In this document: in pieces, positions 4,331 through 29,058 of the stretch
Layout: the number at the start of each line of letters is the position of its first letter
Position numbering within the stretch: the first letter of the stretch is position 1
IMG/VR virus record: IMGVR_UViG_3300042882_000265
Coordinates: 1-29,058 of that record
DNA from: a virus
DNA length: 29,058 nt
Strand: one strand, 5' to 3'
Made by a program: the position numbers and the translations under genes
Notes under the pieces: model-generated
What the model saw: the letters and a program-made list of their open reading frames with translations, nothing else
What the model was told of the DNA's origin: nothing
Databases searched by the model: none

Positions 4331-6478
4331 ATGAACGAAATAGAAGTACCTATAAAAATAACAGGAATTGGAGCGATTAAAAAAGAACTCCGTGACCTAA
4401 AAGGTGAAATTGCAAATGCAACGGATAGCGAACAAATTAGAAAGTTATCACAACGAGCAGGTGAATTAAAAGACCAATTAGCAGATGCAAACGAGCAGGT
4501 AAATATATTTGCTTCGGGTTCTAAGTTTGAACAAGTCAACAACGGATTAGGTTCAATTAAAGATTCAATAATGAGTCTAGATTTTGCCGAAGCAGGTGAT
4601 AAGGCTAAACTATTAACAGGTGCTTTAAAAAATATAAACCCTGCGGACTTTGCAGAGCAGTTTAAAGGCTTTGGAAAAATTATCGGTTCACTAGGTTCTG
4701 CAGTTGGTGTACTTGCAAAGCAGTTTATTTCATTCGGAGTTTCATTATTGGCTAATCCTATTTTTTTATTAGTTGCTGTAATTACTGCTATCGTTGCAGC
4801 GATACTTATTTTCTTAAATAAAATCGGAGTTCTTAAAAAAGTTATAGATACGTTAATGGCTCCCGTAAAAGCACTTATTCAAGGCTTTAAAGATTTGACT
4901 GACTGGCTAGGTTTAACAAGTTTTGCAGCCGAAGAAAACGCGGCTAAAATGGAAGCAGCCAATGAGCGAGTAATGGAAAGCTCAAAGAAACGTCAAGAAA
5001 CGGTTGTTGGTGGTTTTGAATATGAAATTAAAATGGCTAAAATCTACGGTCAAGATACTTTAGATTTAGAGTTAGGAAAAAGCAAAGCCATAGGAACGGA
5101 AGCAAAAAAGCGTTTAAGTTCAGCAGAAAAAGCCCTAGACGCACAACGCGCACTTGGTGACAAAGCAAACAAAGAAACAATAAAGAAATTAAAGACTCAA
5201 ATTGATGATGAGAAAAAGTTAATCATTGACCAACGTAGAGAACGCAATCTATTAGTTGCACAGGATGCGGTTGATAAACGCGAAGAAGCGAAAAAAGACC
5301 TAGAAGAAGACAAGAAAAACAACGAAGCAAAACGCAAGGCTCGAAACGATGCTAATAAAAAAGCAATAGACGATGCGAAAAAGTTTGCAGCTGACAGATT
5401 AGCAGCACAACGTACTATTAGAGACATTGAAATTTCATTAATAAAAGAAGATTCTGACCGAGAAATCGTTGCAACGCAGGAAAAATACGCTAGGTTAATT
5501 GAAGATACTATCAAGAATGAGAATTTAACAAAAGACGAAAAGATAAAACTTCAACAATTATATCAAAAACAACTAGAAGCAGAATTAGGTAAACAAGAAC
5601 AAGTTGAATTAGATGCGGAAAAGGCTAAACAACAAAAGTTAAACGACCAAATCAAAGCAAACCAAGAAGCGGAACTACAAGCACAGGAGGATTTTTACGA
5701 GCAATATAGATTGCAAGTTATGTCTGCTCAAGAAAAAGAAGTTGATGCGGTTAATGGCAAGTATTTTCAATTAATTGCAAAAGCGGAACAACAAGGATTA
5801 GATACTAAAATCTTAAAAGAGCAACAAGAAAAAGAACTTGCTGACATTAATAAAAAATACGCTGACCAACAAGCAAAAGATTCAGCAGAAGCCGAAAAGA
5901 AAAAACGCGATGCACAACTAGAAACAGCTAATAACGCCTTGCAAATAGCGGAAAGTTCAACAAAGGCTATACAGGCAGTTGGTGATATTGCATTTGCTGC
6001 TAAAATGTCAAAAGTTAAAAAGGGAAGTAAAGAAGAAGAAGAACTTGCTAAAAAACAATTTAAGTTTAACAAGGCTTTACAATTAGCAGGGGCTGTTGTG
6101 GATGCTGGTAAGGCTATCACCGCATCATTGGCTGCTGCACCTTTAGCGGTTGGAGTTGTTCCTAATCCTGTCGGTATTGCTAATTTAGTAGCAACTGCTG
6201 CTGTATCGGCTGCTAATATTGCTAAAATTGCATCTACTCAGTTTAATTCAGGTGGTGGCGGTGGTGGTCAAGCACCTAGTATTCCACAAGCTAGTTCAAC
6301 GTCAACAACTGCAGCAACTCCAAATGTAAGTTTATTCGGTCAAGGTAATGACTTAAATAATGTAAGCGCACCACAGGAAGCGCAAACACAAATAACCGTT
6401 AAAGCTGTAGTAAGTGAAACAGAAATTACAAACACGCAACAAAAGATAGATAAGATAAACCAAAACGCAACACTATGA
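4331..6478 (+). CDS. Tail tape measure protein
   Basis: A 715-residue protein with the usual tape-measure layout. A helical N-terminus is followed by a long hydrophobic stretch (about 136-163, FGVSLLANPIFLL onward). A very long charged Ala/Lys/Glu coiled coil (about 200-560) follows, then a second hydrophobic Ala/Val region (about 580-635) and a Gly/Ser/Thr-rich linker with six glycines in a row. It sets tail length and is expected to pass through the tail tube during DNA ejection. By the usual 1.5 Angstrom per residue rule the tail would be near 100 nm. It follows the tip gene by 4 bases and overlaps the next gene as ATGA. Confidence 0.92.
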   Translation: MNEIEVPIKITGIGAIKKELRDLKGEIANATDSEQIRKLSQRAGELKDQLADANEQVNIFASGSKFEQVNNGLGSIKDSIMSLDFAEAGDKAKLLTGALKNINPADFAEQFKGFGKIIGSLGSAVGVLAKQFISFGVSLLANPIFLLVAVITAIVAAILIFLNKIGVLKKVIDTLMAPVKALIQGFKDLTDWLGLTSFAAEENAAKMEAANERVMESSKKRQETVVGGFEYEIKMAKIYGQDTLDLELGKSKAIGTEAKKRLSSAEKALDAQRALGDKANKETIKKLKTQIDDEKKLIIDQRRERNLLVAQDAVDKREEAKKDLEEDKKNNEAKRKARNDANKKAIDDAKKFAADRLAAQRTIRDIEISLIKEDSDREIVATQEKYARLIEDTIKNENLTKDEKIKLQQLYQKQLEAELGKQEQVELDAEKAKQQKLNDQIKANQEAELQAQEDFYEQYRLQVMSAQEKEVDAVNGKYFQLIAKAEQQGLDTKILKEQQEKELADINKKYADQQAKDSAEAEKKKRDAQLETANNALQIAESSTKAIQAVGDIAFAAKMSKVKKGSKEEEELAKKQFKFNKALQLAGAVVDAGKAITASLAAAPLAVGVVPNPVGIANLVATAAVSAANIAKIASTQFNSGGGGGGQAPSIPQASSTSTTAATPNVSLFGQGNDLNNVSAPQEAQTQITVKAVVSETEITNTQQKIDKINQNATL

Positions 6479-6927
6479 TAAGTTACCAAAGTTTAATTAA
6501 TAAGATTATCAATTTTTACGATAATCACTTACAAGTTAAAAAAGTAGGTTCTGACTTTCGGGAACAATTAGAAAACTTCGCTACAAAAGACGAACGTTAT
6601 CCATTAGTGTACATTTGCCCTGTTGATGCTGCGCCATCTGAATTAGGATTTACTACTGAAATTAATTTAGAAATTTATTGCTTTGACATCATACAAAAAG
6701 ACCGAGCGAATATAAACGTAATTCTAAGCGACTGCCATTTAATTTTAAACGACATTTACAATTGGTTCTTAAATTCAGACGATTACTCTTTTGATATTGT
6801 AGGAGTTCCTAGTATGACACCATTAAACAACGACTTACTAGATTACGCTGCGGGGTGGGTAATGACTTTAACGTGTTCAATCAATAATTATACTGATTGT
6901 CAAGTTCCTGAACAAATCGGAGATTAA
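6475..6927 (+). CDS. Tail terminator / tail completion protein (probable)
   Basis: A 150-residue protein starting in an ATGA overlap with the tape measure gene. It has a compact alpha/beta pattern with no membrane segment: an N-terminal helix, a central strand (YPLVYICPVD), a strand with YCFDII, an amphipathic helix (ILSDCHLILNDIYNWF) and a last strand (GWVMTLTCSINN). That pattern resembles lambda gpU-like tail terminators, which cap the tail tube at the head-proximal end. The gp10-like neck protein next door supports this. The assignment is structural guesswork plus context. The late element for the next gene lies inside its last codons. Confidence 0.6.
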   Translation: MISYQSLINKIINFYDNHLQVKKVGSDFREQLENFATKDERYPLVYICPVDAAPSELGFTTEINLEIYCFDIIQKDRANINVILSDCHLILNDIYNWFLNSDDYSFDIVGVPSMTPLNNDLLDYAAGWVMTLTCSINNYTDCQVPEQIGD

Positions 6928-6939
6928 CATTAATATAGT
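6909..6939 (+). promoter_or_regulatory. Late promoter-like element, copy 1
   Basis: Upstream box TGAACAAAT (6909-6917), 12 bases, then TTAATATAGT (6930-6939), with the ATG of the gp10-like gene two bases later. The same two boxes with the same spacing recur before three other structural genes (8601, 11217, 26737). If TAATAT acts as a -10 box, transcription would begin at about the start codon. A translation signal is the alternative reading, but it would not explain the upstream box. Confidence 0.65.
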
Positions 6940-6941
6940 AT

Positions 6942-7355
6942 ATGCCTGATAAGGAATTTAGATTAAAGTATAAGATAAGAAACAAAGCTGCAAAAGTTTT
7001 AAAGCGTGTAATAAAAGAAGATGCGTTAATAGATACGGGTACTTTATACGAATCAATTAGGATAAACGCTAAATTCACAACCGAAGGTAATTTAAGAATT
7101 GAAATATTAGCAGCGTATTACTTTGGGTTCTTGAATAACGGTACAATATCAATAGAACCTTATCACTTAGTAAAACAATTTAACAAGCGGTTAGAAATGG
7201 AGGGTATAATATCGGAAATGTATGCCCAATATATTGAATGGTTAGGTTCTAAATATCCACTTGTACAAGTTGCGGGTATGCTTAGAAAAAAGCAAAACGT
7301 AATTTATGACTTTAATCCGTTATTTGGTGAGTTCTGGTCTGCTTTGGATTACTAA
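6942..7355 (+). CDS. HK97 gp10-like neck / head-tail joining protein
   Basis: A 137-residue basic protein with the hallmarks of the HK97 gp10 (minor capsid / tail completion) family. DTGTLYESIRI (about 31-41) matches the family's DTG-L-SI motif, and YFGFLNNGT (about 63-71) matches its Y--Y-E-GT motif. These proteins sit between the head connector and the tail terminator. The start is set by the late element ending two bases upstream. The gene converges with the minus-strand block and the two stop regions overlap by 4 bases. Confidence 0.75.
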   Translation: MPDKEFRLKYKIRNKAAKVLKRVIKEDALIDTGTLYESIRINAKFTTEGNLRIEILAAYYFGFLNNGTISIEPYHLVKQFNKRLEMEGIISEMYAQYIEWLGSKYPLVQVAGMLRKKQNVIYDFNPLFGEFWSALDY

Positions 7356-8092
7356 AAATTTAATTCTTTACGCATCCCAAGAAAGTTAAATACTAGAATC
7401 AAAGGCAAATCACAAACAGCGTTAAACTTAGTTAAGTCTTCATTACATAGATTCCAGATTAACTGCTCCCATGCCCATTTCTGACTTTTCTTTTCTTCTT
7501 CAAGTTCCTTTTGTTCTTCGATATCTAGAGGTTCATCTGTTTCAAAATCATCTTCATAACTTTCAGTCATTAAATTCTTGTACTGGTCAATGATTCCTTC
7601 TCTGAATTTTATGTATTCCGGTAGCAACCCAAACACGGAACTAATCGGAAAATCCATAAACCATTCTAAGCGGTCATTTGAATTAAAATTATAAGGTTCT
7701 AACGTCTTGTCATTCCATTCGTTTAGTTTATAACGCCTATAAAGTATTGCAACGATGTTAGGCAGCTTTTTTATATAGTCATCCGAAAAGTAAGTTTCTA
7801 AACTGATAAACTCCCCGAGTGTAATCTTACTAAATGGCTTTAATTGAAAGTCCCCTAGTTGCGTTTCATAGCGTTTAGGGGGTTCATCTCGTATAAACTT
7901 AACTTCGATTAGTAACTCGTCAAGTTCTTCGATTGATATATCGTCTAAATCTTCAGGATAACAATCTAACAAAGTACATAGAACGTCTATTTGATAGTTA
8001 AACATTCCATCTTCTTGCGATAGGTTACGAAGTTCTATAAATGTTTCAATCGTTATTTGATTCCACGCTTTCGGCAGCTTGTTTTTTAGCAT
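7352..8092 (-). CDS. Minus-strand structural-module protein, possible tail assembly chaperone (downstream member)
   Basis: A 246-residue acidic protein, one of only two minus-strand genes. N-terminal text WNQITIETFIELRNL and C-terminal text WAWEQLIWNLCNEDLTKFNAVCDLP, separated by a Glu/Asp-rich stretch, look like tail-assembly-chaperone or tape-measure-binding proteins, but I do not recognise a named family. Its ATG lies 47 bases inside the 3' end of the upstream minus-strand gene, in another frame. The overlap holds an A6 run (8082-8087 on this strand), so a fusion by ribosomal slippage is possible. It would have to be +1 or -2, because the frames do not fit -1. Confidence 0.6.
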   Translation of the reverse strand: MLKNKLPKAWNQITIETFIELRNLSQEDGMFNYQIDVLCTLLDCYPEDLDDISIEELDELLIEVKFIRDEPPKRYETQLGDFQLKPFSKITLGEFISLETYFSDDYIKKLPNIVAILYRRYKLNEWNDKTLEPYNFNSNDRLEWFMDFPISSVFGLLPEYIKFREGIIDQYKNLMTESYEDDFETDEPLDIEEQKELEEEKKSQKWAWEQLIWNLCNEDLTKFNAVCDLPLILVFNFLGMRKELNF

Positions 8093-8588
8093 GGTTTGAG
8101 ATTGTTTCGGTTACAAATGTAAGATAAGGAATAGCAATTTCAGCAGGTTGCAATCTAAACAACTTTGATTTATGCTTTAAATGCGCGTTGTCATAGTGTT
8201 CAATATTGCTTAAATCAGTACGTTTAAACATCAAAGCTAAAATATCACTTACTGAATGCTTGTTTTCTTTAACAATTATCTTTTCAATTAGTTTAGTATC
8301 TTTTACAGATAGTTTCATTTCGGCTTTATAAATATAACCTTCAAGTTCAATTTCTGAAACTGGTTCTTTATTATCTAAATTGTCAGTATTGAACTCTTTT
8401 GTTTTTTCGACAAAGTATTTAAAATCGTCCCATTCATCTTCTTCAACTCCTACGACTTCAAAAACTTTAATTTGCTTTTCGATATTATCAAAATCAGGGT
8501 TGTTATGAATCGCGCTAATTTTTTCAAATTCTTCAACCGTTATTTCATTCATTCTGTTGGCTATGTTTCGCCCGAATACTTCAATCAT
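8046..8588 (-). CDS. Minus-strand protein, possible tail assembly chaperone (upstream member)
   Basis: The frame is open to an ATG at 8633, but I place the start at 8588 (180 residues, MIEVFGRN), because a host-type -7 box TATATTTG lies between the two and that promoter could not make the longer form. It is an acidic helical protein with no membrane segment. By position it could be the short tail assembly chaperone, with the 246-residue gene as its frameshift extension. It could also be an unrelated pair. Being transcribed against the whole head-tail module is unusual and suggests separate timing. Confidence 0.6.
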   Translation of the reverse strand: MIEVFGRNIANRMNEITVEEFEKISAIHNNPDFDNIEKQIKVFEVVGVEEDEWDDFKYFVEKTKEFNTDNLDNKEPVSEIELEGYIYKAEMKLSVKDTKLIEKIIVKENKHSVSDILALMFKRTDLSNIEHYDNAHLKHKSKLFRLQPAEIAIPYLTFVTETISNHAKKQAAESVESNND

Positions 8589-8600
8589 ATCTATAATTTT

Positions 8601-8630
8601 TGAACAAATATAAATAATATTTAATATAGT
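8601..8630 (+). promoter_or_regulatory. Late promoter-like element, copy 2
   Basis: TGAACAAAT (8601-8609), 11 bases, TTAATATAGT (8621-8630), one base, then the ATG at 8632 of the protease-scaffold gene. Both boxes are identical to copy 1, and the spacer is one base shorter. It would drive protease-scaffold and major capsid protein up to the terminator at 10585. Confidence 0.65.
8605..8612 (-). promoter_or_regulatory. Host-type -7 box for the minus-strand pair
   Basis: The minus strand reads TATATTTG, a full match to the Bacteroidota -7 consensus TAnnTTTG, 16 bases before the chosen ATG at 8588. No clear TTG is seen 17-21 bases further upstream, so the promoter would rest on the -7 box alone. 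It physically overlaps the upstream box (8601-8609) of the plus-strand late element, so the two promoters should exclude each other. Confidence 0.5.
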
Positions 8631-8631
8631 C

Positions 8632-9612
8632 ATGTTGAAAGACCTACCTGTCTATAAAATTACAATCGATCCCGAGTATTCTGACGGTCAAGAATTAGGA
8701 ATAGAACAAATTGCTTTTACTTCTAATCCTGCTATCAAAGTTAAAGGTATGGCTTTTAATCAAAGTGAAAGATTGTTATTCGCAGACGATGTAAAATATC
8801 GCGTTACCGCTCCCGCTATGATTCCAATGGAAATTTATAGACGTGACGATGAAACAGGCGAGTATTACGTTCAGTTTACTGCTGAAACAATCGAACAAAT
8901 CCACGCTAAATTTATGCAGGATTTAAAGAATAGGGATGTGTTCAACTTAGAACATGACCAAGAGCAAACCGTACCTGCGTATATTCTTGAATCATGGATT
9001 GTGGATAATCCAAAACTAGATAAATCATTTACTACATTCGGTATTGAAGTGCCAAAAGGAACGTTAATGTTAACCGCCCAAATCACGGATAAAGAATACT
9101 ACAACGAGTTAGTAAGTAAAGACCAAATCGGATTTAGTATTGAGGGTTTTCTAGGTTTGAAAATGAGTAATCAATTAAAATTAAATAATATGAAGTTACC
9201 TGATGGAGAACATCTAATCGAGGGTAAAGTCTACGTTGTAAAAGGCGGAGAAATTATCGAGATTAAAGATGCACCGAAAGAAGAAGTGGCGATGGAAGAT
9301 TCAGTAGTTGAAGAAGAAGTAACAACTGAAACTGAGCCTATCGATGAACAACCTGCACCCGAAGAACTTGAAGAAGTTAAGAAAGAAGAAATGGCTGTTG
9401 ACGTTGCTACGGATGCGGAAGCTGTTTTGGCAATCGTTGCGCCTGTACTTGAAGAACAAGTAAACAACCTACTAAAAATTATTGCTGACTTAAAAACTCA
9501 AATGGAAGAAATGTTAGCCGAAAAAGCCGAAGAAGAAATTGAATTGAAATCTGAGGTTAAAATGTCAATGGCTGAAAAGTTCAGCGCATTAAACAAATTA
9601 AGTAATAACTAA
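8632..9612 (+). CDS. Prohead protease (XkdF/U35-like) fused to a scaffold domain
   Basis: A 326-residue protein. The N-terminal part (about 1-185) is a capsid maturation protease. His108 lies in FNLEHD and Ser169 in GFSIEGFL, matching the His and Ser motifs of the herpesvirus-assemblin/XkdF-like serine protease clan. After a short linker, residues about 220-326 are very acidic (runs of Glu, Val, Pro) and end in a coiled coil, as in phage scaffolds. Protease and scaffold are therefore one polypeptide, upstream of the capsid gene by 15 bases. The late element one base before the ATG sets the start. Confidence 0.85.
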   Translation: MLKDLPVYKITIDPEYSDGQELGIEQIAFTSNPAIKVKGMAFNQSERLLFADDVKYRVTAPAMIPMEIYRRDDETGEYYVQFTAETIEQIHAKFMQDLKNRDVFNLEHDQEQTVPAYILESWIVDNPKLDKSFTTFGIEVPKGTLMLTAQITDKEYYNELVSKDQIGFSIEGFLGLKMSNQLKLNNMKLPDGEHLIEGKVYVVKGGEIIEIKDAPKEEVAMEDSVVEEEVTTETEPIDEQPAPEELEEVKKEEMAVDVATDAEAVLAIVAPVLEEQVNNLLKIIADLKTQMEEMLAEKAEEEIELKSEVKMSMAEKFSALNKLSNN

Positions 9613-9627
9613 AATCAAACAATAAAA

Positions 9628-10560
9628 ATGGAAAGAAAATTAAAATTCGACCTAGAAGTAGAAGCAAACGCTTTGCTTTGTCCAAATCCAAACGAGTTCT
9701 ATTCTCGTGCTTATTTAACAGCAGATACTGCTGACACTTACCGCGCTTTACCGGGTGTAAAGTCAAAGACTAAACTTGGTAACGTAGCTTTCGGTTCAAT
9801 CTTACAAGCATCTACTTGTAACTTTTCAGCACCAACTGACACACTAGATGCAATCGAAATTGATGTTTGTGCATTTTCAGCAATGGCTCAAATCTGTCAG
9901 TTCGACCTAGAGCAGTCTTTTGTTGCTTTGCAAATGACTCAAGGTTCTAACGGTGATTTCTCTGTACCTTCATTCATGAACTACTATTGGGGAGTTATGG
10001 CAAGTCAAATCGAAGAAGATATCGAATTAATTAGATGGCAAGGTGATACAGAAAGCGTAAACCCTTTACTTGCTTTGTGTGATGGTCACTTGAAAAAACT
10101 TTGTGCTGATTCTGCAAATCTAGCTTATACAGGCGGTGGTGCGGTTAATTCATCAAATGTACTAGCAACATTGAATGTAGTTGTTAACAGCCTTCCAGCT
10201 TCAGTTAGATTTAAGAAAACTGATTTAAGAATTCGTGTTTCTTCAAATGTTGCTGCTGCGTATGAACTTGCTGCTGCTTCAGGTAATACTTTAACATATG
10301 TTTCTGCTCCATTGCAAATGACATATTTAGGAATTAAAGTTGTAGTTTGTGAGGGTATGCCAGATAACACAATCGTAGCTTCATTGAAAGACGATTTAAT
10401 CTATGCATTTGATGCAGAAGGAGATGCAAAAGCATTGAAAGCGGTTAACTTGACAGATACAGTTGCTGAGCCTTATATCAGAACTAGAGCAAACGTTAAA
10501 GCAGGATTTTATCACACAAACCCTGAGCAAATTTCTGTTTGGGCTGCTTGTTTTGATTAA
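9628..10560 (+). CDS. Major capsid protein (HK97 fold)
   Basis: A 310-residue protein directly downstream of the protease-scaffold gene and followed by a strong terminator, as expected for the most abundant head protein. C-terminal text YLGIKVVVCEGMPDN followed by a short strand and YAFDAEGDAKAL is typical of the A-domain end of HK97-fold capsid proteins. There is no long N-terminal delta domain, which fits the separate scaffold part on the protease. The A-rich leader (AATAAAA before ATG) is normal for Bacteroidota. Family identity is by motif and context, not by search. Confidence 0.85.
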   Translation: MERKLKFDLEVEANALLCPNPNEFYSRAYLTADTADTYRALPGVKSKTKLGNVAFGSILQASTCNFSAPTDTLDAIEIDVCAFSAMAQICQFDLEQSFVALQMTQGSNGDFSVPSFMNYYWGVMASQIEEDIELIRWQGDTESVNPLLALCDGHLKKLCADSANLAYTGGGAVNSSNVLATLNVVVNSLPASVRFKKTDLRIRVSSNVAAAYELAAASGNTLTYVSAPLQMTYLGIKVVVCEGMPDNTIVASLKDDLIYAFDAEGDAKALKAVNLTDTVAEPYIRTRANVKAGFYHTNPEQISVWAACFD

Positions 10561-10584
10561 TCAATAATTAACTAAAATAGTAAT

Positions 10585-10612
10585 GGGGTGGGGATAACCT
10601 CGCCCCTTTTTT
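10585..10612 (+). terminator. Intrinsic terminator after the capsid gene
   Basis: Stem 10585-10593 (GGGGTGGGG) pairs with 10598-10606 (CCTCGCCCC): nine pairs including two G-T, loop ATAA, followed by six T. It separates capsid from tail tube transcription. A GTG inside the hairpin opens a longer frame for the next gene, which I reject as a start. Confidence 0.9.
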
Positions 10613-10638
10613 GTAAAACATTTAAAAAAATATATAAC

Positions 10639-11169
10639 ATGGCATGTGAAGCACTAGAATCCATTGTAAAGAGTTGTGACAATAACTCTGGAGGGATTTA
10701 TAAGGTTTGGATAAACCAACAAGACAACATAGCATCTTACACGTTAAACCCAACGTTAAGCTGGACTATTGACTCAATTACATTAACTGACCCTGCGGAC
10801 ATTTACACGGAGTTTGAAATCCGTAGAAATACAGGTTCATTTACAGAAGAAGCAGCTATTGATTTAGTAAACGGTTCTTCTTACTATACGCAAACAATTA
10901 CATTATTGTTTCATCGTAGAGACCAGTCTAAATCTCAAGCGATTAAAGTTTTGGGAGCAGGTCAACAATACCTTAATGCAATCGTTTTAGATGCTAACGG
11001 TAAATATTGGTATTTTCCTTTCTTGCAATTAACAGCAGCAGGTGAAGGAAGTGGTACAGCCCGTGCGGACGGTTCTAAATATTCCGTTACTTTAAGTGCT
11101 GAAAATGAGTTTTTATCATATGAGGTTACTGAATCAACGGTAGAATCTGTTATTACGGTAGCACCTTAA
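10639..11169 (+). CDS. Major tail tube protein (probable)
   Basis: A 176-residue protein beginning MACEALES, with a beta-rich pattern (GGIYKVWI, SWTIDSITL, YTQTITLLFHRRDQ, KYWYFPFLQLTAAGEGSG, FLSYEVTE) that fits tail tube proteins of Bacteroidota phages. I start at the ATG at 10639. The frame is open to a GTG at 10588, but that lies in the terminator hairpin. The gene sits alone between two strong intrinsic terminators, as suits a very abundant product. I see no late element in the 26 bases between terminator and ATG, so it may depend on read-through or an unrecognised promoter. Confidence 0.75.
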   Translation: MACEALESIVKSCDNNSGGIYKVWINQQDNIASYTLNPTLSWTIDSITLTDPADIYTEFEIRRNTGSFTEEAAIDLVNGSSYYTQTITLLFHRRDQSKSQAIKVLGAGQQYLNAIVLDANGKYWYFPFLQLTAAGEGSGTARADGSKYSVTLSAENEFLSYEVTESTVESVITVAP

Positions 11170-11191
11170 ACCTACTATTCTCTAGAAAATG

Positions 11192-11217
11192 AGCATCCTT
11201 CGGGGTGCTTTTTTTTT
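11192..11217 (+). terminator. Intrinsic terminator after the tail tube gene
   Basis: AGCATCC (11192-11198), loop TTCG, GGGTGCT (11203-11209), then nine T in all (11209-11217). Seven pairs with one G-T and a stable UUCG tetraloop make a textbook terminator. The upstream box of the next late element begins at the last T. Confidence 0.93.
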
Positions 11218-11247
11218 AAACAAAAAGACGTACTAATTTAATATAGT
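11217..11247 (+). promoter_or_regulatory. Late promoter-like element, copy 3
   Basis: TAAACAAAA (11217-11225), 12 bases, TTAATATAGT (11238-11247), one base, then GTG at 11249. It lies between a terminator and the small structural gene, where a new promoter is needed for the portal, connector and lysis genes. That is independent support for reading the motif as a promoter. Confidence 0.7.
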
Positions 11248-11248
11248 T

Positions 11249-11590
11249 GTGATTTACATTAATAAAGATGAAGTTAACAATATAGTTCTAACACTAAGCG
11301 AGGTTAGTTCTTTGTCTAATCCATTCTATTTATTTGTGTTTCAGAACGAAATGAACCCTGAAAGCGAACCAATTTTATTCAGTTCCCCCGACATTTCAAC
11401 TTATCCCGAAAGATTTAATCAATTCTTACTAGATGAACCTGTAGATGTTCAAATAGTTAAAGGTCAATATTCATATTCAGTTTATGAAGCAATAACTGCG
11501 CCTACTGAAATTGAAGATACAACAGGAATAGTTATCGAAGAAGGTCGAATGGTGGTTTCAGGTGCGATTATAAACTCAATTTACGACTAA
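11249..11590 (+). CDS. Conserved small structural-module protein, function unknown
   Basis: A 113-residue protein with a GTG start, chosen because the late element ends one base before it and the frame begins MIYINKDEVNNIVLTLSE. It has a beta-rich pattern (PFYLFVFQNEM, GQYSYSVYEA, GRMVVSGAI) and is acidic, with no membrane segment. Proteins of this style are common beside portal or tail genes in Bacteroidota phages, but I cannot name a function. It is three bases before the portal gene and is probably co-translated with it. Confidence 0.75.
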   Translation: MIYINKDEVNNIVLTLSEVSSLSNPFYLFVFQNEMNPESEPILFSSPDISTYPERFNQFLLDEPVDVQIVKGQYSYSVYEAITAPTEIEDTTGIVIEEGRMVVSGAIINSIYD

Positions 11591-11593
11591 CTT

Positions 11594-12913
11594 ATGGCAT
11601 GGTATAACATATTCAAACAAAGTGAAAACAAAACTATTGAAGTGGTCGAAGGTTATCAATCTTTCAGTACACCGTTTAGTAAAATTGGTGGTGGAAATTT
11701 ATCATTGCCTTATGTAAATGGACGTTACCAAGTCGCTGGATATATCCCCTTTGGAATCGAAAATTTATACCCAGAAACTTTAAATCAGATGTATTATTCT
11801 AGTCCATTACACGGTGCAATAGTTGATTACAAAACGAATGCTGTTATCGGTGGTGGGTTTAATATCATGATTGATAAGCTAACAAACGAGGAAAAACTTG
11901 ATTTGTACGCATTCGAAAAAAAGATTAAACTTAAAAAGATTGCCCCAATAGTTACAAAACAGCTAATTATTCATAACAGGGTTTATTTTAAATTATGCTT
12001 TTCAGATAAAGGAAAATTAACCAAAATAGAAAACCTTTCACCTGAAAAATTAAGACGTTCACGTGATGGTAAAACGTACTTTATTTGCGAAGACTGGGCA
12101 TCTAGAATAGACGTTTTAGAGATTGTTCCATACCATCCATTAAATAAAGAGTACGAACAGCTGTTTATATACGAGTTACCGTGTATCGGTCAAGACTATT
12201 ACCCACTTCCGCAGTATTCAAGTGCTTTAAACTTTGCGTTTTTGAGTGGTGAATTGAGTTATTTAGCAAAATCTAACATACAAAATGCTGTTTTCCCTTC
12301 ATTCGCGATGATGTTTCCTAAACGTCCACAAAGCGAAGAAGAAAAAAACGTACTACGTAGAACCATTGACAAGCTAAAAGGCGCTGAAAACGCAGGGAAA
12401 GCGGTTGCATTCTTTGCAAATAGTGCTGAACAGATGCCAAAGATTGAAAGTTTACCAACTAACTCAAACGATAAACTCTTTCAAGAAGCATCTAGTTTGA
12501 ATACAGAACAGATTTGTTTTGCTCACACTATCGACCCAATATTAATGGGAGTTAGAACTACTGGCTCACTTGGTAGCGGTTCGGATATTAAACAAGCATA
12601 TGTAATTTTTGAAAAAAACGTAGTTAAACCTTTGAGAGAAAATGTCGAAGATATATTTAATGAGTTGTTACATATTGCAAAAGTTAAAGGTGAGTTAAAA
12701 ATAAACAACTTTCAAATCATTAATGAAACGATCGTTGAAGTTGAAGAAAGCGCATCTAAAACAAGTGACGCGTTAAACTCTTTGAGTCCTTTGGTAGCTA
12801 CAAAAGTTCTTAATTCAATGACTCCAAACGAAATCAGAGCCCTTGCAAGTTTACCACCTATTGAAGGTGGTGATATTGTGCCTAGTACAAACCCTGAAAC
12901 ACCTGTTGTATAA
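11594..12913 (+). CDS. Portal protein
   Basis: A 439-residue protein with portal-like organisation. Residues about 75-95 (SSPLHGAIVDYKTNAVIGGGF) match the early helix of HK97/SPP1-type portals. A central alpha/beta wing region follows, then a long stem-helix region with ILMGVRTTGSLGSGSDI (about 315-331), a common portal text, and a long helix after it. The dodecameric portal forms the DNA gate and the terminase docking site. It ends in TAATG with the connector gene. Here it lies after capsid and tail tube, not before capsid as in most phages. Confidence 0.88.
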   Translation: MAWYNIFKQSENKTIEVVEGYQSFSTPFSKIGGGNLSLPYVNGRYQVAGYIPFGIENLYPETLNQMYYSSPLHGAIVDYKTNAVIGGGFNIMIDKLTNEEKLDLYAFEKKIKLKKIAPIVTKQLIIHNRVYFKLCFSDKGKLTKIENLSPEKLRRSRDGKTYFICEDWASRIDVLEIVPYHPLNKEYEQLFIYELPCIGQDYYPLPQYSSALNFAFLSGELSYLAKSNIQNAVFPSFAMMFPKRPQSEEEKNVLRRTIDKLKGAENAGKAVAFFANSAEQMPKIESLPTNSNDKLFQEASSLNTEQICFAHTIDPILMGVRTTGSLGSGSDIKQAYVIFEKNVVKPLRENVEDIFNELLHIAKVKGELKINNFQIINETIVEVEESASKTSDALNSLSPLVATKVLNSMTPNEIRALASLPPIEGGDIVPSTNPETPVV

Positions 12914-13467
12914 TGCTTTACTTTATAACTGAAAACTACCTAAAAACGAACACGCCAATAACAGCGAATGTTGACGTTACAGATGTAACTCCGTATATTG
13001 CAACACAGGCACAGCTTCGCGTTATGCCAATTTTAGGTACTACGTTTTTTAATTATATGCTTCAAGTCTATAATGATCAAACAGCAACGAATGATGAAGA
13101 AACTTTAATCAAATTCATTCAACCTATTATAGCGTGGCGTTCTGCTGAAGATGCTGTTTTCGGTTTAACCTACCAACTTAAAAACAAAGGTCTTCAAACT
13201 CAAAACGGGGATTTCTCTAGTTCAGTAAGTCAAAGAGAGGTTGCATTTGGAATGGAGCATTACGCACAAAAAGCAGCATTTTTCGAAGAGCGATTGATTA
13301 AGTATCTTATTAAAAATAAATCATTGTACCCTGAATTTATTTCACTAGAAAATAGAGATACAGATTTACGCCCTATGATTGATTGCTTTGGTTGTACAGG
13401 ATGCTGTCATGGCACTTGCAACTATGAACACGGTAACGGATATAACACTCAAATTTTAATACTTTAA
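12913..13467 (+). CDS. Head-tail connector/adaptor protein with Cys-rich tail
   Basis: A 184-residue, mostly helical protein right after the portal. Text such as YIATQAQLRVMPILGTTFFNYML and FIQPIIAWRSAEDAVF fits gp6-like adaptors of Bacteroidota phages that bind below the portal. The C-terminus is odd: Cys158, Cys161, Cys164, Cys165 and Cys169 with His166 lie within a dozen residues, a possible metal site or disulfide cluster not expected in adaptors. It starts within the portal stop (TAATG). Confidence 0.72.
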   Translation: MLYFITENYLKTNTPITANVDVTDVTPYIATQAQLRVMPILGTTFFNYMLQVYNDQTATNDEETLIKFIQPIIAWRSAEDAVFGLTYQLKNKGLQTQNGDFSSSVSQREVAFGMEHYAQKAAFFEERLIKYLIKNKSLYPEFISLENRDTDLRPMIDCFGCTGCCHGTCNYEHGNGYNTQILIL

Positions 13468-13468
13468 C

Positions 13469-13687
13469 ATGAACGAATTTATTACACAAATCAAAAAGAA
13501 CGGAGCAGTAGGAGTTTTGGCTATGTGGCTATGGTACACACATACGGAAGTACAGGAACTTAAACAACGTTTATATGAATGCTATGGCAAACAAGTTTCG
13601 ATGGATTTAACTATAAAAGATAATCCGACTTTCGCTATCAAACCAAAAGACGAACTAAACGAGCGTAAAAAAAGACTTGAAGCATGA
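13469..13687 (+). CDS. Small membrane protein, candidate holin
   Basis: A 72-residue protein with one short hydrophobic segment (about 12-24, GAVGVLAMWLWYT) followed at once by a charged amphipathic helix (EVQELKQRLYECYGKQ) and a basic end. This is the layout of BhlA/UviB-type holin-like proteins. It overlaps the lysin gene as ATGA, which supports a role in lysis. The hydrophobic segment is short for a classical holin, so a spanin-like or other lysis helper is possible. Confidence 0.6.
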   Translation: MNEFITQIKKNGAVGVLAMWLWYTHTEVQELKQRLYECYGKQVSMDLTIKDNPTFAIKPKDELNERKKRLEA

Positions 13688-14202
13688 ATTACGACTGGCT
13701 ATATAATGAAGGCGCACCACGTTTATTAGTACAAGCTATTAAACATATCGGAGTTAAAGAGGTTGAAGGCAAAAAACACAATCCTATAATCATGAATTGG
13801 GCGCGTGAACTATGCCTTGACAAAGTTTATAATTCAGATGAGATTCCTTGGTGTGGTTTATACATAGCGTATATATGCAAAATGGCGGGATTAGACGTAG
13901 TTAATAAACCTTTGTGGGCGTTATCATGGTCAACGTGGGGAAACGAAGCGACAGAGCCTATGTTAGGAGATATTTTAACATTCAAAAGAGATGGCGGTGG
14001 ACACGTAGGAATTTATGTAGGAGAGGACAAAACTCATTATCATGTTTTAGGCGGTAATCAAGGCAACTCTGTAAGCGTTTCACGTATTGCAAAAACACGA
14101 TTATTTAAAGCACGTAGAACAGCGTGGAAAATTGCACAACCTGCAAACGTTCGAAAAGTACATTTAGAACCTAAAGGAGTAATAACAACAAACGAAAAAT
14201 AA
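13684..14202 (+). CDS. Endolysin, NlpC/P60-CHAP-like cysteine peptidase/amidase (TIGR02594-like)
   Basis: A 172-residue protein with a papain-like fold signature. Cys57 lies in IPWCGLYIAYICK, and His107 in GGGHVGIYVGED after the GDILTF strand. A polar residue follows in GGNQGNSVSVS (about 118-128), then FKARR. It matches TIGR02594-type phage lysins that cut peptidoglycan peptide bonds. There is no signal peptide, so export needs a holin, and the preceding gene is the candidate. The last 20 residues form a flexible tail. Confidence in the family is high; the exact bond cut is unknown. Confidence 0.85.
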   Translation: MNYDWLYNEGAPRLLVQAIKHIGVKEVEGKKHNPIIMNWARELCLDKVYNSDEIPWCGLYIAYICKMAGLDVVNKPLWALSWSTWGNEATEPMLGDILTFKRDGGGHVGIYVGEDKTHYHVLGGNQGNSVSVSRIAKTRLFKARRTAWKIAQPANVRKVHLEPKGVITTNEK

Positions 14203-14204
14203 AA

Positions 14205-14429
14205 ATGGCAAAGAAAAAGAAAATTGACGTTGACGTACAAGTAAACGATACGCACATTGAAGTAAAAAGAGATGACAAAGAATCGAAAGTATTATTAGAT
14301 TCCAATAAATTAGACATTGAAGTCACAAAGACGGATGACAGCTTAGAGGTGAAAGTTGAGGCACAAAATCCGTTTTTGGGCTTCGCAGGAAAAATATTAG
14401 GCAGATATATTTCTAAGAAATTAAAATAA
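14205..14429 (+). CDS. Small charged protein, function unknown
   Basis: A 74-residue protein. A Lys-rich start (MAKKKKIDVDVQVN) leads into alternating beta-like segments with many Asp, Glu, Lys and Val, then a short hydrophobic helix (NPFLGFAGKILGRYI) and a basic end. It is not a clear membrane protein, but the C-terminal helix could touch membranes. It is the last gene of the lysis group, two bases after the lysin stop, before the promoter-terminator RNA at 14431. Confidence 0.65.
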   Translation: MAKKKKIDVDVQVNDTHIEVKRDDKESKVLLDSNKLDIEVTKTDDSLEVKVEAQNPFLGFAGKILGRYISKKLK

Positions 14430-14430
14430 T

Positions 14431-14497
14431 TATATTTGTACTGCTTTTTCATAATGGTTTAATTGTTAAGAACCCCTTTTAACCGAGGGGTTTTTTT
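14431..14497 (+). ncRNA. Possible ~55-nt small RNA: host-type -7 box followed by terminator
   Basis: TATATTTG (14431-14438) is a full -7 match just after the last late gene. A transcript starting near 14444 would end at the terminator at 14471-14497 after about 55 nt. It has no start codon with a useful frame. Its 3' end, GGGGTTTTTTTATT, is identical to that of the structured RNA at 16085-16178. No -33 TTG is seen, so this could be a chance -7 box ahead of the late terminator. Confidence 0.35.
14471..14497 (+). terminator. Intrinsic terminator of the late region
   Basis: AACCCC (14471-14476) pairs with GGGGTT (14487-14492), with a ten-base loop and a T7 tract (14491-14497). It closes the lysis group before the early promoter at 14537. 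Confidence 0.88.
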
Positions 14498-14536: not shown

Positions 14537-14580
14537 TTGTTATTCTAAAAAGAATATATATCTTTGTTGAAACAATTAAA
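14537..14580 (+). promoter_or_regulatory. Early promoter with inverted-repeat operator, copy 1
   Basis: TTG (14537-14539), 19 bases, TATCTTTG (14559-14566): a full Bacteroidota promoter. Between the boxes lies TATTC-TAAAAA-GAATA (14541-14556), a perfect inverted repeat with a 6-base centre. The leader has AACAATTAAA (14571-14580). The promoter at 19582 has the same parts at the same distances. The repeat is well placed to block RNA polymerase when a dimeric repressor binds. Confidence 0.82.
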
Positions 14581-19581: not shown

Positions 19582-19624
19582 TTGTTATTCAATAAAGAAT
19601 AGTTATATTTGTCAAACAATTAAA
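19582..19624 (+). promoter_or_regulatory. Early promoter with inverted-repeat operator, copy 2
   Basis: TTG (19582-19584), 19 bases, TATATTTG (19604-19611). The inverted repeat TATTC-AATAAA-GAATA (19586-19601) sits at the same offset as in the promoter at 14537, and AACAATTAAA (19615-19624) begins three bases after the -7 box. It drives the ERF recombination operon. Confidence 0.85.
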
Positions 19625-22181: not shown

Positions 22182-22217
22182 TGTTATTCTTTTTATTATA
22201 TTTGTCAAACAATTAAA
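22182..22217 (+). promoter_or_regulatory. Early/middle promoter with operator half site, copy 3
   Basis: The -7 box TATATTTG is at 22197-22204 and the leader AACAATTAAA at 22208-22217, as in copy 2. Upstream lies GTTATTC (22183-22189), the left half of the operator, but no GAATA. The distance to the -7 box is six bases shorter, and no proper TTG is present at -33. It therefore looks like a family member altered by a short deletion. It heads the operon with the sigma-like gene. Confidence 0.68.
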
Positions 22218-22826: not shown

Positions 22827-23002
22827 TAAACGAGATTATTAACGCTACAGAGGTAGTAAGATACTCAAAGGTAAGTCTGAATAGACTAAAAAAGATTAAA
22901 GAGCTTAAAACAAAGAAAAAAGACGGTGAGTGTTTTTGTTCAAATGTTCGTAGGCGTGTATGGTTTAAAGATTTTGTAAGTTGGTTTGAAAGCAATTCTT
23001 GA
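22799..23002 (+). CDS. 67-residue protein beside the sigma-like gene, function unknown
   Basis: The helical N-terminus carries many Lys, and the end GECFCSNVRRRVWFKDFVSWFE has a Cys-x-Cys. It overlaps the upstream gene by 28 bases and the downstream gene by 17. Proteins with a CFCS-RR-W end next to a sigma-like gene are common in Flavobacterium phages, in my reading. It may work with the regulator. Confidence 0.62.
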   Translation: MFEQAELEIINEIINATEVVRYSKVSLNRLKKIKELKTKKKDGECFCSNVRRRVWFKDFVSWFESNS

Positions 23003-23519
23003 TAAATACCTGTCGAAGCATTACGAAGATGTACGAAAATACACTAACTACTTTTTGGTGCGTATGAAAAGCCGAATAACTGCGGACGTAGTGATTAATA
23101 ACAGCTATATTTATTTAGTTGGATTGAAAACCGACATAAAGACGGAAGACCAAATGAAAGCATATCTGTTTAATACGATAAAAAAGCAAATAATTTGGAA
23201 TACTAGCCAGTCAAACAAAGATGAGCATATTACAGCCTTTGAAAACACGAACGTACAAGAAGCCGAAGATAACACCGATTTACAGGATAAAATAGAACTA
23301 GAACGTAAATACCAACTACACAAATCATGTATAGAGGTTTATAGAAACAATATTGATGACAAAATTAAATTATTAATATTTGAGGCATATTACGACAAAG
23401 GTTACAGCACAGCCAGAGCAATGGGCAAATATTTTGATTTACCATTTACAACTGCTCACTTTTGGATTAGAGAAATAAAGAATGATTTACTTATAATTAA
23501 GAAACAACATGAGAATTAA
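22986..23519 (+). CDS. Sigma-70-like / late transcription regulator (probable)
   Basis: A 177-residue protein with a TTG start. No nearer ATG fits, and the first ATG in frame would remove the N-terminal helix. The N-terminal half (about 1-85) has a sigma region 2-like pattern (NNSYIYLVGLKTDI, AYLFNTIKKQIIWNTSQ). A helical linker leads to a C-terminal HTH (about 120-168, KLLIFEAYYDKGYSTARAMGKYFDLPFTTAHFWIREIKNDLL) like sigma region 4. It is a good candidate for the factor reading the late elements at 6909, 8601, 11217 and 26737. Similarity is weak by eye. Confidence 0.65.
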   Translation: MKAILDKYLSKHYEDVRKYTNYFLVRMKSRITADVVINNSYIYLVGLKTDIKTEDQMKAYLFNTIKKQIIWNTSQSNKDEHITAFENTNVQEAEDNTDLQDKIELERKYQLHKSCIEVYRNNIDDKIKLLIFEAYYDKGYSTARAMGKYFDLPFTTAHFWIREIKNDLLIIKKQHEN

Positions 23520-25229: not shown

Positions 25230-25607
25230 ATGGCAGGTAAAGGACAAATAGAACCACGTTGGGAAAAAGGAGAAAGCGGAAACCCTAACGGAAGACCGAG
25301 AAAGTATGTTTCAGCACTAAAGGAACATGGATATAAAGCATCTGAAATTAACGATTGTATCCTTGTAATGATTTCAATGTCACTGGATGAACTAAAAGAC
25401 GTTTGGCAAAATCCAAAAGCAACGATACTCGAAAAGACGATTGCAAATGCTTTGCGTAAATCTTTGGAGAAAGGTTCGTTATATTCAATAGAAACTTTAT
25501 TAAGCAGAGCAGTAGGTAAACCAAAGGAATCAATCGACCATACAACAAACGGTGAACCAATGCGAGATATTAAGGTTACGATAATAAATGGAAATACAAG
25601 CGACTAA
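25230..25607 (+). CDS. Terminase small subunit (DUF5681-like)
   Basis: A 125-residue protein. MAGKGQIEPRWEKGESGNPNGRPRK is the DUF5681-type start (KG-SGNP-GRP). A helical middle follows, and then a C-terminal part with GKPKESIDHTTNG. It precedes and overlaps the large subunit by 20 bases, which fits DNA recognition for packaging. The ATG at 25230 is chosen over 25185, which lies inside the preceding gene. Confidence 0.78.
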   Translation: MAGKGQIEPRWEKGESGNPNGRPRKYVSALKEHGYKASEINDCILVMISMSLDELKDVWQNPKATILEKTIANALRKSLEKGSLYSIETLLSRAVGKPKESIDHTTNGEPMRDIKVTIINGNTSD

Positions 25608-26739
25608 TATATTTCAAAAGAACTTTGACGCGCTCCAAAATAAATGGGTGCGTTTTGTCATTAATGAGGGCGGTTCACGTTCAAGTAAGACTTATTCGCT
25701 TTGTCAGTTGCTAATCGTTTACAGCTTACAGAATCCTCAAAAGGTAGTTAGTATAATTAGAAAAACTTTTCCTGCGTTACGAGCAACGGTAATGCGTGAC
25801 TTCTTCGAAATACTTAAAGACCTAGAAATATATTCAAGTGAACGCCATAACAAGTCAGAGCATATCTACACTTTCGATAATGGCTCAATAGTTGAATTTT
25901 TTAGTGTGGATGATGAACAAAAGATACGAGGTCGTAAACGTGACGTGGCATGGTGCAATGAAGCAAATGAGTTATTTTACGATGACTTTACTCAGTTGAA
26001 CATGAGAACCGAGTTTAAGTTAATTTTTGATTACAACCCTTCGGAGTCTTCAAGTTGGCTTTACGAGTTACCAAAAGACGAAAGCACGTTAATTAAATCT
26101 ACTTACAAAGACAATCCGTTTTTACCTGACAGCATTAAAAAGCAAATTGAAGACCTTAAACGAACTGATGAATCATTATATCAGATTTACGCACTAGGTG
26201 AAAAGGCAATCAGTAAAAGTAACATTTACTCTAATTGGACTTTCTTGAATCATAGACCTTCAAAGTTTGTTAATTACGTTTATGGGTTGGACTTCGGTTA
26301 TAACCACCCCACTGCGCTTGTAAGGGTTTACTGGGTAGATAATGATATATTCATTGAAAAGGTAATTTACGAAAGCTATTTAACCACTACAAACCTAATC
26401 GACAAAATGAATCAGTTAGGCGTAGAAAAACACGTTACGATATTAGCTGACTATTCACGCCCCGAAATAATAGCAGAAATGAACAACGCAGGGTTTGACG
26501 TTCAGAATGCGAATAAGGTAGTTAAAAAAGGGATTGATAACATTAAAACCTTTGGAGTATTTTGCGAGGATTCAAAAGAAATAAAAAAGGAATACGATAA
26601 TTATAAATGGAAAAAAGTAGGCGACATAATAACGGATGAACCTGTTAAATTATTTGATGATGCTATGGACGCGATTAGATACGCAGTTACTCATATTAGA
26701 CAAGAATATTACACCGACGATTCTTACTTTGCATTCTAA
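25588..26739 (+). CDS. terL: Terminase large subunit
   Basis: A 383-residue packaging ATPase and nuclease. The P-loop GGSRSSKT lies at 28-35, the variant usual in phage terminases. A Walker B-like VAWCNEANE has the catalytic Glu125. The C-terminal RNase H-like nuclease shows GLDFGYN (Asp235), ILADYSRPE (Asp288) and DDAMDAIRYA (Asp357, Asp358, Asp361). It docks on the portal and drives DNA into the prohead. It is short for the family but all motifs are present. The stop codon is shared with the upstream box of the late element at 26737. The circular assembly cannot tell headful from cohesive-end packaging. Confidence 0.95.
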   Translation: MEIQATNIFQKNFDALQNKWVRFVINEGGSRSSKTYSLCQLLIVYSLQNPQKVVSIIRKTFPALRATVMRDFFEILKDLEIYSSERHNKSEHIYTFDNGSIVEFFSVDDEQKIRGRKRDVAWCNEANELFYDDFTQLNMRTEFKLIFDYNPSESSSWLYELPKDESTLIKSTYKDNPFLPDSIKKQIEDLKRTDESLYQIYALGEKAISKSNIYSNWTFLNHRPSKFVNYVYGLDFGYNHPTALVRVYWVDNDIFIEKVIYESYLTTTNLIDKMNQLGVEKHVTILADYSRPEIIAEMNNAGFDVQNANKVVKKGIDNIKTFGVFCEDSKEIKKEYDNYKWKKVGDIITDEPVKLFDDAMDAIRYAVTHIRQEYYTDDSYFAF

Positions 26740-26768
26740 ACATAAACACGGAAAAAATTAATATTAGT
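26737..26768 (+). promoter_or_regulatory. Late promoter-like element, copy 4 (variant)
   Basis: TAAACATAA (26737-26745, its TAA being the terL stop), 12 bases, then TTAATATTAGT (26758-26768), which has one inserted T compared with the other copies, then the ATG at once. It would drive the fibre genes and, through the join, the tail tip and tape measure genes. Confidence 0.58.
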
Positions 26769-28136
26769 ATGGCTTACAGAGAAAGACAAAAAATTAGTCA
26801 AATGACACCGAAAGGTAGCAATCTCGAAGCTACCGATTTAATAGAGATATCAGAACTTCAATCGGGGACTTATGTAACAAGGTCTATTACAGGTCAAGAA
26901 ATTATTAACGCTGCTTCTGGTGGCGGTTCTGGTGACTTACAAACGGTTACAGATAACGGCAACACAACAACGAATGATTTAATAGTTAGTGTTGATAATC
27001 CAAATGACAAAACAACGGTTTCAGACCAATACGTAAAAACGGAAAACGGAACTACGGGAACATATACAAGTATAACAGCAATAGGAGGTTTGCAGTTAAA
27101 AGTAGGCGATGAAGAAAGTCAACTTAAAAACACGAATGTAACAAACCCCGATGTTGTTTTAGAATTCCCTGACAAAGCAACAGGAAGTTATACAATAGCA
27201 ACAACAAGCGATTTAACGAGTGGTTATATTCCATATACAGGCGCAACTCAAAACGCTGATTTAGGCGAATACGAACTAAAGGCTGGTCAACTTAGTTTAG
27301 ACGTATCACCAACAGGAACTGCTGCGGTAGGAACTACTAGATGGAATGATTCATTAGGAAGTTCTGAAACAACTTTAAAAGGTGGTTCGGTTATACTGAA
27401 GAACGGTGTTGACTTAGTAGCTAGAGTAGTTAATAAAGTTGTACCCAATGCAACGCTTACAAAAGCTAATTATACAGCTGTTAAAGTATCTGGTGCTCAA
27501 GGTCAAAGATTAGCTGTTGATTACGCAAAAGCGGATACAGATTTAAATTCAGCGGACACCATAGGATTAGTAACTGAAACAATCGCAACAAACCAAGAAG
27601 GCTTTATTATAACGGTAGGGCAAATCGAAGAAATAAACACCACAGGTAGCTTACAAGGTGAAACTTGGGCTGATGGTGACGTTCTTTACTTATCACCTAC
27701 AACTGCTGGAGCGTTAACAAATGTTAAACCAACAGGCGCAACAGGTCACATTGTCGTAATTGGTTACGTTGAATATGCACACGCAGTACATGGTAAGATT
27801 TACGTTAAGATAATGAACGGTTGGGAGTTAGATGAACTTCATAACGTTTATATTTCTTCAGTTCAAAAAGGGGATAATTTAGAATATAACGGAACGCTTT
27901 GGGTAAATACAGGTATTAAATTTACTATTGAATTAATGGATGCGTTAAGTGTAGATTTTTACGCTCCGTATGCGTTAAAGATAAATTCAGTTAGTAATGT
28001 ATTAAACGCGCCAACGATTACTATTTTAGACGATGGCTCGGCATATACTCTAGGTAATACAATTACAATCGGAAGTAAAATAACGGTGACGGCAAACACG
28101 GCTTCCGTAGTTAATTTAAACGTAGTTAAAGCATGA
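26769..28136 (+). CDS. Tail fibre-like structural protein
   Basis: A 455-residue protein rich in Thr, Gly, Asn and Ser. The N-terminus MAYRERQKISQMTPKGSNLEATDLIEIS is an attachment segment seen in fibre or structural proteins of Bacteroidota phages. The middle has GYIPYTGATQNADLGEYELKAGQL, a common fibre-shaft text, and the C-terminal half is beta-rich. No enzymatic motif. It is followed in ATGA overlap by the lectin-like protein, so the two may form one receptor-binding assembly. Confidence 0.75.
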   Translation: MAYRERQKISQMTPKGSNLEATDLIEISELQSGTYVTRSITGQEIINAASGGGSGDLQTVTDNGNTTTNDLIVSVDNPNDKTTVSDQYVKTENGTTGTYTSITAIGGLQLKVGDEESQLKNTNVTNPDVVLEFPDKATGSYTIATTSDLTSGYIPYTGATQNADLGEYELKAGQLSLDVSPTGTAAVGTTRWNDSLGSSETTLKGGSVILKNGVDLVARVVNKVVPNATLTKANYTAVKVSGAQGQRLAVDYAKADTDLNSADTIGLVTETIATNQEGFIITVGQIEEINTTGSLQGETWADGDVLYLSPTTAGALTNVKPTGATGHIVVIGYVEYAHAVHGKIYVKIMNGWELDELHNVYISSVQKGDNLEYNGTLWVNTGIKFTIELMDALSVDFYAPYALKINSVSNVLNAPTITILDDGSAYTLGNTITIGSKITVTANTASVVNLNVVKA

Positions 28137-28748: not shown

Positions 28749-28985
28749 ATGGCAACTTATAACTTTCCACAATTCAATGTAGAGATTATCAATCCGACTA
28801 TTGAAATAGACTTAAACACGATTCAAGACCAAGCGATTAATAAATTATTAAGCGTAGATATTTTATTAATAACTGAAACGTCAAAATTTGGAGTTACGGC
28901 TAATAATATGCCTTATGAGTATTCATGGGATGATGACGATATAACAACAATGGTTAATATTTGGCTGCAACAATTTGAGATATAA
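28749..28985 (+). CDS. 78-residue conserved tail-region protein
   Basis: MATYNFPQFNVEIINPTIEI... then LLSVDILLITETSKFGVTANNMPYEYSWDDDDITTMVNIWLQQFEI. Proteins of this type are common in tail modules of Bacteroidota phages. It may be a small structural or assembly factor. It starts one base after the lectin-like gene and ends in TAATG with the next tail gene across the join, and its last 54 bases are repeated at 1-54. Confidence 0.7.
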   Translation: MATYNFPQFNVEIINPTIEIDLNTIQDQAINKLLSVDILLITETSKFGVTANNMPYEYSWDDDDITTMVNIWLQQFEI

Positions 28986-29058
28986 TGGCAATAACTTTAA
29001 TAGCGAGACCGCAAGATATAACACCCGCTTACAACCCTGTTAAATGGATTGTAGATTC
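28932..29058. repeat. 127-bp direct terminal repeat, right copy
   Basis: Identical to 1-127. From 28985 it holds the first 74 bases of the 499-residue tail protein gene that is complete at 54-1553, so that gene must not be counted twice. Joining the ends removes one copy and restores unbroken genes. Confidence 0.95.

Follow-up and report, generated by a model that had tools for sequence, protein, structure and literature searches.

In T4 (gp55) and SPO1 (gp28/gp33-34) a phage sigma redirects the host polymerase to the virion genes via a phage-specific box; the T4 late promoter, TATAAATA, has no -35 box. ECF sigmas are two-domain (sigma-2/sigma-4) proteins without other regions, and their promoters have an AAC core in the -35 box, which precedes the downstream box by about 17 nt. 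The primary sigma of Bacteroidetes (sigma-ABfr / sigma-A) reads promoters of the form TTG-N19-TAnnTTTG. In flavobacteria the sigma-A box occupies -12 to -5, the published ECF motif of F. psychrophilum has a CGT-type box and only about 5.5% of the mRNAs of this species are leaderless (PMC9723704). Leaderless genes were described as being marked by a -10-type box that precedes the start codon by about 10-12 nt (Zheng et al. 2011, PMC3160421). The late promoters of phage AR9, AACA-(6N)-TA/G, are used by a phage multisubunit polymerase and give leaders of at least 26 nt (PMC5312081).

The element described here, AACA-N16-[T/C]AATATAG, resembles the T4 and SPO1 systems in that a phage sigma is proposed to serve the late genes; it differs from them in lineage and promoter, is bipartite and is fused to start codons. 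The proposed reader protein and its putative promoter would share with ECF sigmas a predicted two-domain organization and have the AAC-containing box at about 17 nt, but the protein is phage-encoded and falls below all family cut-offs, and no anti-sigma gene was identified near its gene at 22986. In place of the CGT-type box of the F. psychrophilum ECF promoters the phage has TAATATAG, next to the start codon. The TA start and the final G of this downstream box are shared with the sigma-ABfr / sigma-A promoters, which serve the early genes of the phage, whereas TTTG is absent, AACA stands for TTG, the spacer is 16 rather than 19 and there is no room for a leader. The distance from box to start is that of TA-led leaderless genes (PMC3160421); unlike these, the phage element has a fixed partner box, belongs to one phage lineage and precedes the first genes of late blocks. 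The AACA tetranucleotide recurs in the AR9 late promoters, although there it is placed 6 nt from the TA/G start dinucleotide, with a different polymerase and longer leaders. Late promoters with a dedicated phage sigma are already known; no start-codon-fused bipartite late promoter of this form was found described in the freely accessible literature covered.

The stretch of DNA analysed (the window) is the IMG/VR virus record IMGVR_UViG_3300042882_000265 (29,058 nt), a whole, circularly permuted siphovirus-like genome. It carries a direct terminal repeat of 127 bases (1-127 = 28932-29058), and repeats of 127, 114 or 91 bases were found in several relatives; such terminal direct repeats indicate that the assembled genome is circular or circularly permuted. 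Recognizable gene products include the terminase, portal, protease, capsid and tape-measure proteins. Among GenBank phages no relative was found by the capsid (MCP) or by the sigma-like protein, and no close isolate; the terminase is only ∼33% identical to those of Flavobacterium and Parabacteroides phages. A relative of the capsid is encoded on at least 598 IMG/VR stretches, and the lineage is a large group of uncultured freshwater phages. For the comparison, 20 related records were fetched and oriented, nine representatives of which were used for the 8-mer test. A genome scan for the host returned one MAG match (L149); in this 0.8-Mb bin the phage forms a separate contig, and the match says nothing on the host. 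A 29.6-kb relative (L350/L351, G021 contig C6) is binned into the small 'bacterium' MAG JAIXRY and has CAATATAA variant promoters. The word AAACACGA, among the commonest 8-mers of the window, is strand-biased (14 on the plus and two on the minus strand), as it is in relatives (20:2 in G008).

The original prediction placed four copies of a bipartite element at 6909, 8601, 11217 and 26737, and all four are present in the sequence. In full they read TGAACAAA-N13-TTAATATAGT-AT-ATG (6909), TGAACAAA-N12-TTAATATAGT-C-ATG (8601), TAAACAAA-N13-TTAATATAGT-T-GTG (11217) and TAAACATA-N13-TTAATATTAGT-ATG (26737), so that the gap between the boxes is 12-13 and not 11-12 as had been given; the extra T reported for the last copy is there (TAATATTAG in place of TAATATAG). 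The tight form, AACA-N16-TAATAT(T)AG (N15 in copy 2), is located as follows.

6911-6938, plus strand: P1, AACA at 6911-6914, N16, TAATATAG at 6931-6938; ATG at 6942 (HK97-gp10-like gene)
8603-8629, plus strand: P2, AACA at 8603-8606, N15, TAATATAG at 8622-8629; ATG at 8632 (head maturation protease)
11219-11246, plus strand: P3, AACA at 11219-11222, N16, TAATATAG at 11239-11246; GTG at 11249 (113-aa gene)
26739-26767, plus strand: P4, AACA at 26739-26742, N16, TAATATTAG at 26759-26767 (extra T); ATG at 26769

At all four copies the box is followed by the start codon after 1-3 nt, the distance from the first T of the box to the start codon being 10-11 nt. TTAATATAGT occurs exactly three times in the window (both strands), every time just before a start codon. 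The bipartite form AACA-N15/16-TAATAT(T)AG was seen four times against 0.054 expected, a count reached by none of 1000 shuffles that preserved dinucleotides; requiring a start codon within 1-4 nt downstream lowers the expectation to 0.004. By itself TAATATAG is not enriched in the window (three seen, 2.3 expected), and 8-mer counts from the window alone, or from lineage g3 alone, are too small for de novo discovery.

Of 54,305 8-mers compared in the nine related genomes, TAATATAG was the one most strongly associated with the positions just before gene starts, where 31 of its 51 occurrences lie (0.67 expected); the associated p-value is not to be read literally because the genomes are related. 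The motif is thus concentrated at starts, and the possibility that it might be just as common inside genes did not hold. Two clade B genomes gave ten of 11 occurrences at starts against 0.17 expected. AACA was found at -19 to -22 from the box at 12 of 18 independent start-linked sites and at 4 of 60 other TAATATAG/CAATATAG sites (p = 5e-7), which confirms the second box separately from the first.

Related phages that keep the genes were also found to retain the boxes. An orthologous copy of P1 is present in 12 of 12 clade A genomes, P2 is kept in clades A and B, and P3 is kept in clades A, B and C, where the orthologues start with ATG or GTG at the same place. P4 has plain TAATATAG in G001, G002, G003, G008 and G013 and has drifted to a TAATATTG- or TAATATAAG-type box in six of the 12 clade A genomes (G004-G007, G009 and G016); AACA is imperfect at some sites of clades B and C. 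Behind the terminase, and likewise behind the orthologue of the gene at 6475, clades A and B have the element in the same place but differ in the gene that follows it; the second of these places is that of P1, where clade B has another gene downstream. Proteins orthologous across clades begin at these same start codons. The element is also present at loci fetched via the sigma-like protein (42-56% identical), and 84 distinct AACA-anchored start-linked sites were collected from eight lineages (sigma-like protein 42-100% identical), with a spacer of 16 in 73 and a box-to-start gap of 2 in 75; a control with reversed boxes in the eight lineages gave one site. In C6, the most remote relative examined (capsid 58%, sigma-like protein 45%), CAATATAA replaces TAATATAG at four promoters, namely those behind the sigma-like gene, the terminase and the 6475 orthologue and the one ahead of the protease. 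Such a coordinated change at unlinked sites fits the prediction of a shared reader protein.

A scan of IMG/VR by the DNA pattern alone returned at least 120 matches, and a permuted control returned six in the entire collection. Among the matches listed, 113 of 114 new loci encode homologues of the proteins of this phage and 118 of 121 sites precede an ORF of at least 60 codons or one leaving the contig. A chance repeat was rejected on the shuffles, the 8-mer test at starts and the permuted-pattern control.

The genes and terminator-like hairpins around the four copies are listed below.

6942-7355, plus strand: HK97-gp10-like tail component behind P1 (PF04883, 25.5 bits against a cut-off of 21.4)
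8632-9612, plus strand: head maturation protease-like, first gene behind P2 (phrog_34096)
9628-10560, plus strand: second gene behind P2, without its own copy of the motif; virion structural protein, major capsid-like (phrog_1623)
11191-11210, plus strand: terminator-like hairpin and T run, directly upstream of P3
11249-11590, plus strand: 113-aa gene behind P3, followed by the portal gene at 11594-12913 (portal: phrog_11226/12)
14474-14490, plus strand: terminator-like hairpin closing the P3 gene block
25588-26739: terminase large subunit (phrog_2)
26769-28136, plus strand: 455-aa gene behind P4, no family match, directly after the terminase large subunit

The claim that all four copies precede structural genes holds broadly, the 26769 product behind the terminase being without a family match, and the hairpin at 11191-11210 bears out the terminator that had been noted directly before copy 3. 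The four copies in the window all lie before virion-gene units, and the element is absent from early genes and from the inside of operons; genes within the late blocks, including the capsid gene, are without it. P2 sits between divergent genes, so that read-through from upstream would be antisense across 7352-8589, and P3 follows a terminator; each downstream block therefore needs a promoter of its own. The four copies would divide the late region into 26769-6927 (around the circle), 6942-7355, 8632-11169 and 11249-14429. Two minus-strand genes without a family match (7352-8633) lie within the late region, an arrangement that is the same in all clades and in the distant relative. A strong terminator-like hairpin was found directly 3' of the capsid gene (10585-10606), and for the next gene a start at 10639 is more probable than one at GTG 10588.

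Beyond its presence, position, spacing, conservation, concerted variation and lineage specificity, all of which are directly observed, the element is very probably a phage-specific late promoter that gives near-leaderless mRNAs. The proposal of a late promoter gains support from the logic of the transcription units, from the fixed place of the element despite gene exchange and from the coordinated change of the box. For the complete reading, in which AACA-N16-[T/C]AATATAG would be the late promoter of the lineage, read by a phage ECF-like sigma to yield (nearly) leaderless mRNAs, we estimate a probability of roughly 0.7. The host RNA polymerase, carrying the sigma encoded by gene 22986, would contact AACA as an upstream (-35-like) box and TAATATAG as a downstream (-10-like) box, the latter two to four bases before the start codon of the gene that opens each virion block, and P1-P4 would be active late. 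Both the leaderless start and the dedicated reader are predictions from sequence.

The candidate reader is encoded upstream of the terminase.

22986-23519, plus strand: 177-aa sigma-like protein (remote ECF-like) with a TTG start; proposed to read P1-P4

This protein is encoded in every related record that is long enough, the one without it being an 18.8-kb fragment (G019). In lineages g2, g3 and g4 and in relative C6 a copy of the element is found where this gene ends and the late region starts. The family lies below the cut-off of the curated sigma-70/ECF models (TIGR02937 best, 20 bits against 42.9), no Pfam sigma domain was matched and an hmmsearch of the family against PDB sequences found no sigma factor. 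The weak matches across 27 diverse orthologues are mostly to sigma-70/ECF models, with TIGR02937 matched by 8 of the 27. An AlphaFold model (pTM 0.43) has helices at 2-74 and 99-176 joined by a low-confidence linker (76-96), and its best PDB matches are nearly all sigma factors, with a Foldseek E of 0.06 or worse; given these values the fold match is supportive and no proof. With VIA-align the C-terminal region of sigma-H was matched with Z 8.8 over 72 residues and RpoE was matched by the N-terminal half with Z 6.9 over 74 residues, a range of Z (up to 8.8) that is rated middling by the tool. Taken from these models, the protein is probably a remote ECF-like sigma with two domains, and it may well be the factor that reads the element.

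RinA/ArpU genes lie upstream of terminase, as gene 22986 does, and the protein might instead be a RinA/ArpU-like activator that binds AACA and helps the host sigma-A to use TAATATAG as a variant of TAnnTTTG, with which it has TA and the final G in common. Weak matches to the RinA model TIGR01636 were obtained for four of the 27 orthologues, all of them below the cut-off (16.3 bits against 31.9 in one orthologue). We consider this rather unlikely, since the predicted fold is that of a two-domain sigma, both domains having matches, since the concerted variation affects the -10-like box itself and so points to a factor reading that box, and since with host sigma-A spacing the +1 would fall inside the start codon.

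With ECF-type spacing counted from the AAC core, the +1 would coincide roughly with the first base of the start codon, and the mRNA would begin at the AUG or within a few bases of it. The downstream box has the distance of about 10-12 nt and the tight position seen before TA-led leaderless genes (gap of 2 in 75 of the 84 sites). With the 2-nt gap seen at most sites, a host sigma-A box at -12 to -5 would put the +1 near the third base of the start codon, and a leaderless AUG would require a +1 about 2 nt closer. This misfit is what speaks for a true late promoter with a normal leader, the +1 or the working start codon lying elsewhere, which we regard as improbable because orthologous proteins start at these codons across clades and because the box itself fills the upstream sequence, so that any leader would be very short.

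It is very improbable that the element is a translation-initiation signal of the late mRNAs rather than a promoter. It does adjoin start codons at a near-fixed spacing, but most late genes are without it (capsid 9628, portal 11594 and, in clade A, tape measure 4331), its partner box is 20 nt upstream, partly in the preceding coding region or against a terminator, and its genomic place is unchanged when the downstream gene is exchanged. An A at -3, which promotes translation in Flavobacterium (PMC6847099), is present at 12% of the motif starts against 52% of other starts, which makes a translation signal unlikely. A Shine-Dalgarno or Kozak-like signal was ruled out by the same comparison. Just as implausible is a promoter of a host alternative (ECF) sigma exploited by the phage: Bacteroidetes hosts have several ECF sigmas (seven in F. 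psychrophilum; PMC9723704), but the motif published there has a CGT box, among the matches listed in the DNA-only scan of viral contigs the element is essentially confined to this phage lineage and the phage brings its own sigma-like gene.

The early genes are preceded by host-type signals.

14537-14566, plus strand: host-type early promoter TTG-N19-TATCTTTG, 23 nt to ATG
19582-19611, plus strand: host-type early promoter TTG-N19-TATATTTG, 22 nt from box to next ATG
22197-22204, plus strand: host-type -7 box TATATTTG, ATG at 22228

Host-type promoters with a credible gene in the relatives have 22-29 nt from box to ATG. That the host consensus is a different signal was borne out: at two of its fixed positions TAnnTTTG is not matched by TAATATAG, and P1-P4 contain no TTG-N18..20-TAnnTTTG, the consensus being that of Bacteroidetes, the presumed host phylum. 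A search of the window for generic E. coli-type sigma-70 promoters was uninformative (68 found, with 67.4 expected from shuffles). The early genes would be read from TTG-N19-TAnnTTTG by the host primary sigma, with leaders of about 20 bases. More tentatively, and with somewhat less than even odds, a switch in the mode of translation may be wired into the transcription switch, with the host sigma and leadered mRNAs early and the phage ECF-like sigma and leaderless mRNAs, rare in the host phylum, for the virion blocks. As only about 5.5% of mRNAs are leaderless in F. psychrophilum (PMC9723704), the use of leaderless mRNA for virion genes by a phage would be notable.

For a large, uncultured freshwater phage group there is now a defined consensus of the probable late promoter and a candidate for the protein that reads it, and the DNA pattern alone can serve as a marker with which to find the lineage in metagenomes. 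The pair could serve as an orthogonal sigma/promoter system for Bacteroidetes and would allow a direct test of whether a phage can move its host from leadered to leaderless translation for virion genes.

At 8603-8612 the AACA box of P2 overlaps an opposite-strand host-type -7 box, TATATTTG, that belongs to the divergent gene on the minus strand. Clades A and B both preserve this overlap, and P2 and the divergent host-type promoter could therefore exclude each other.
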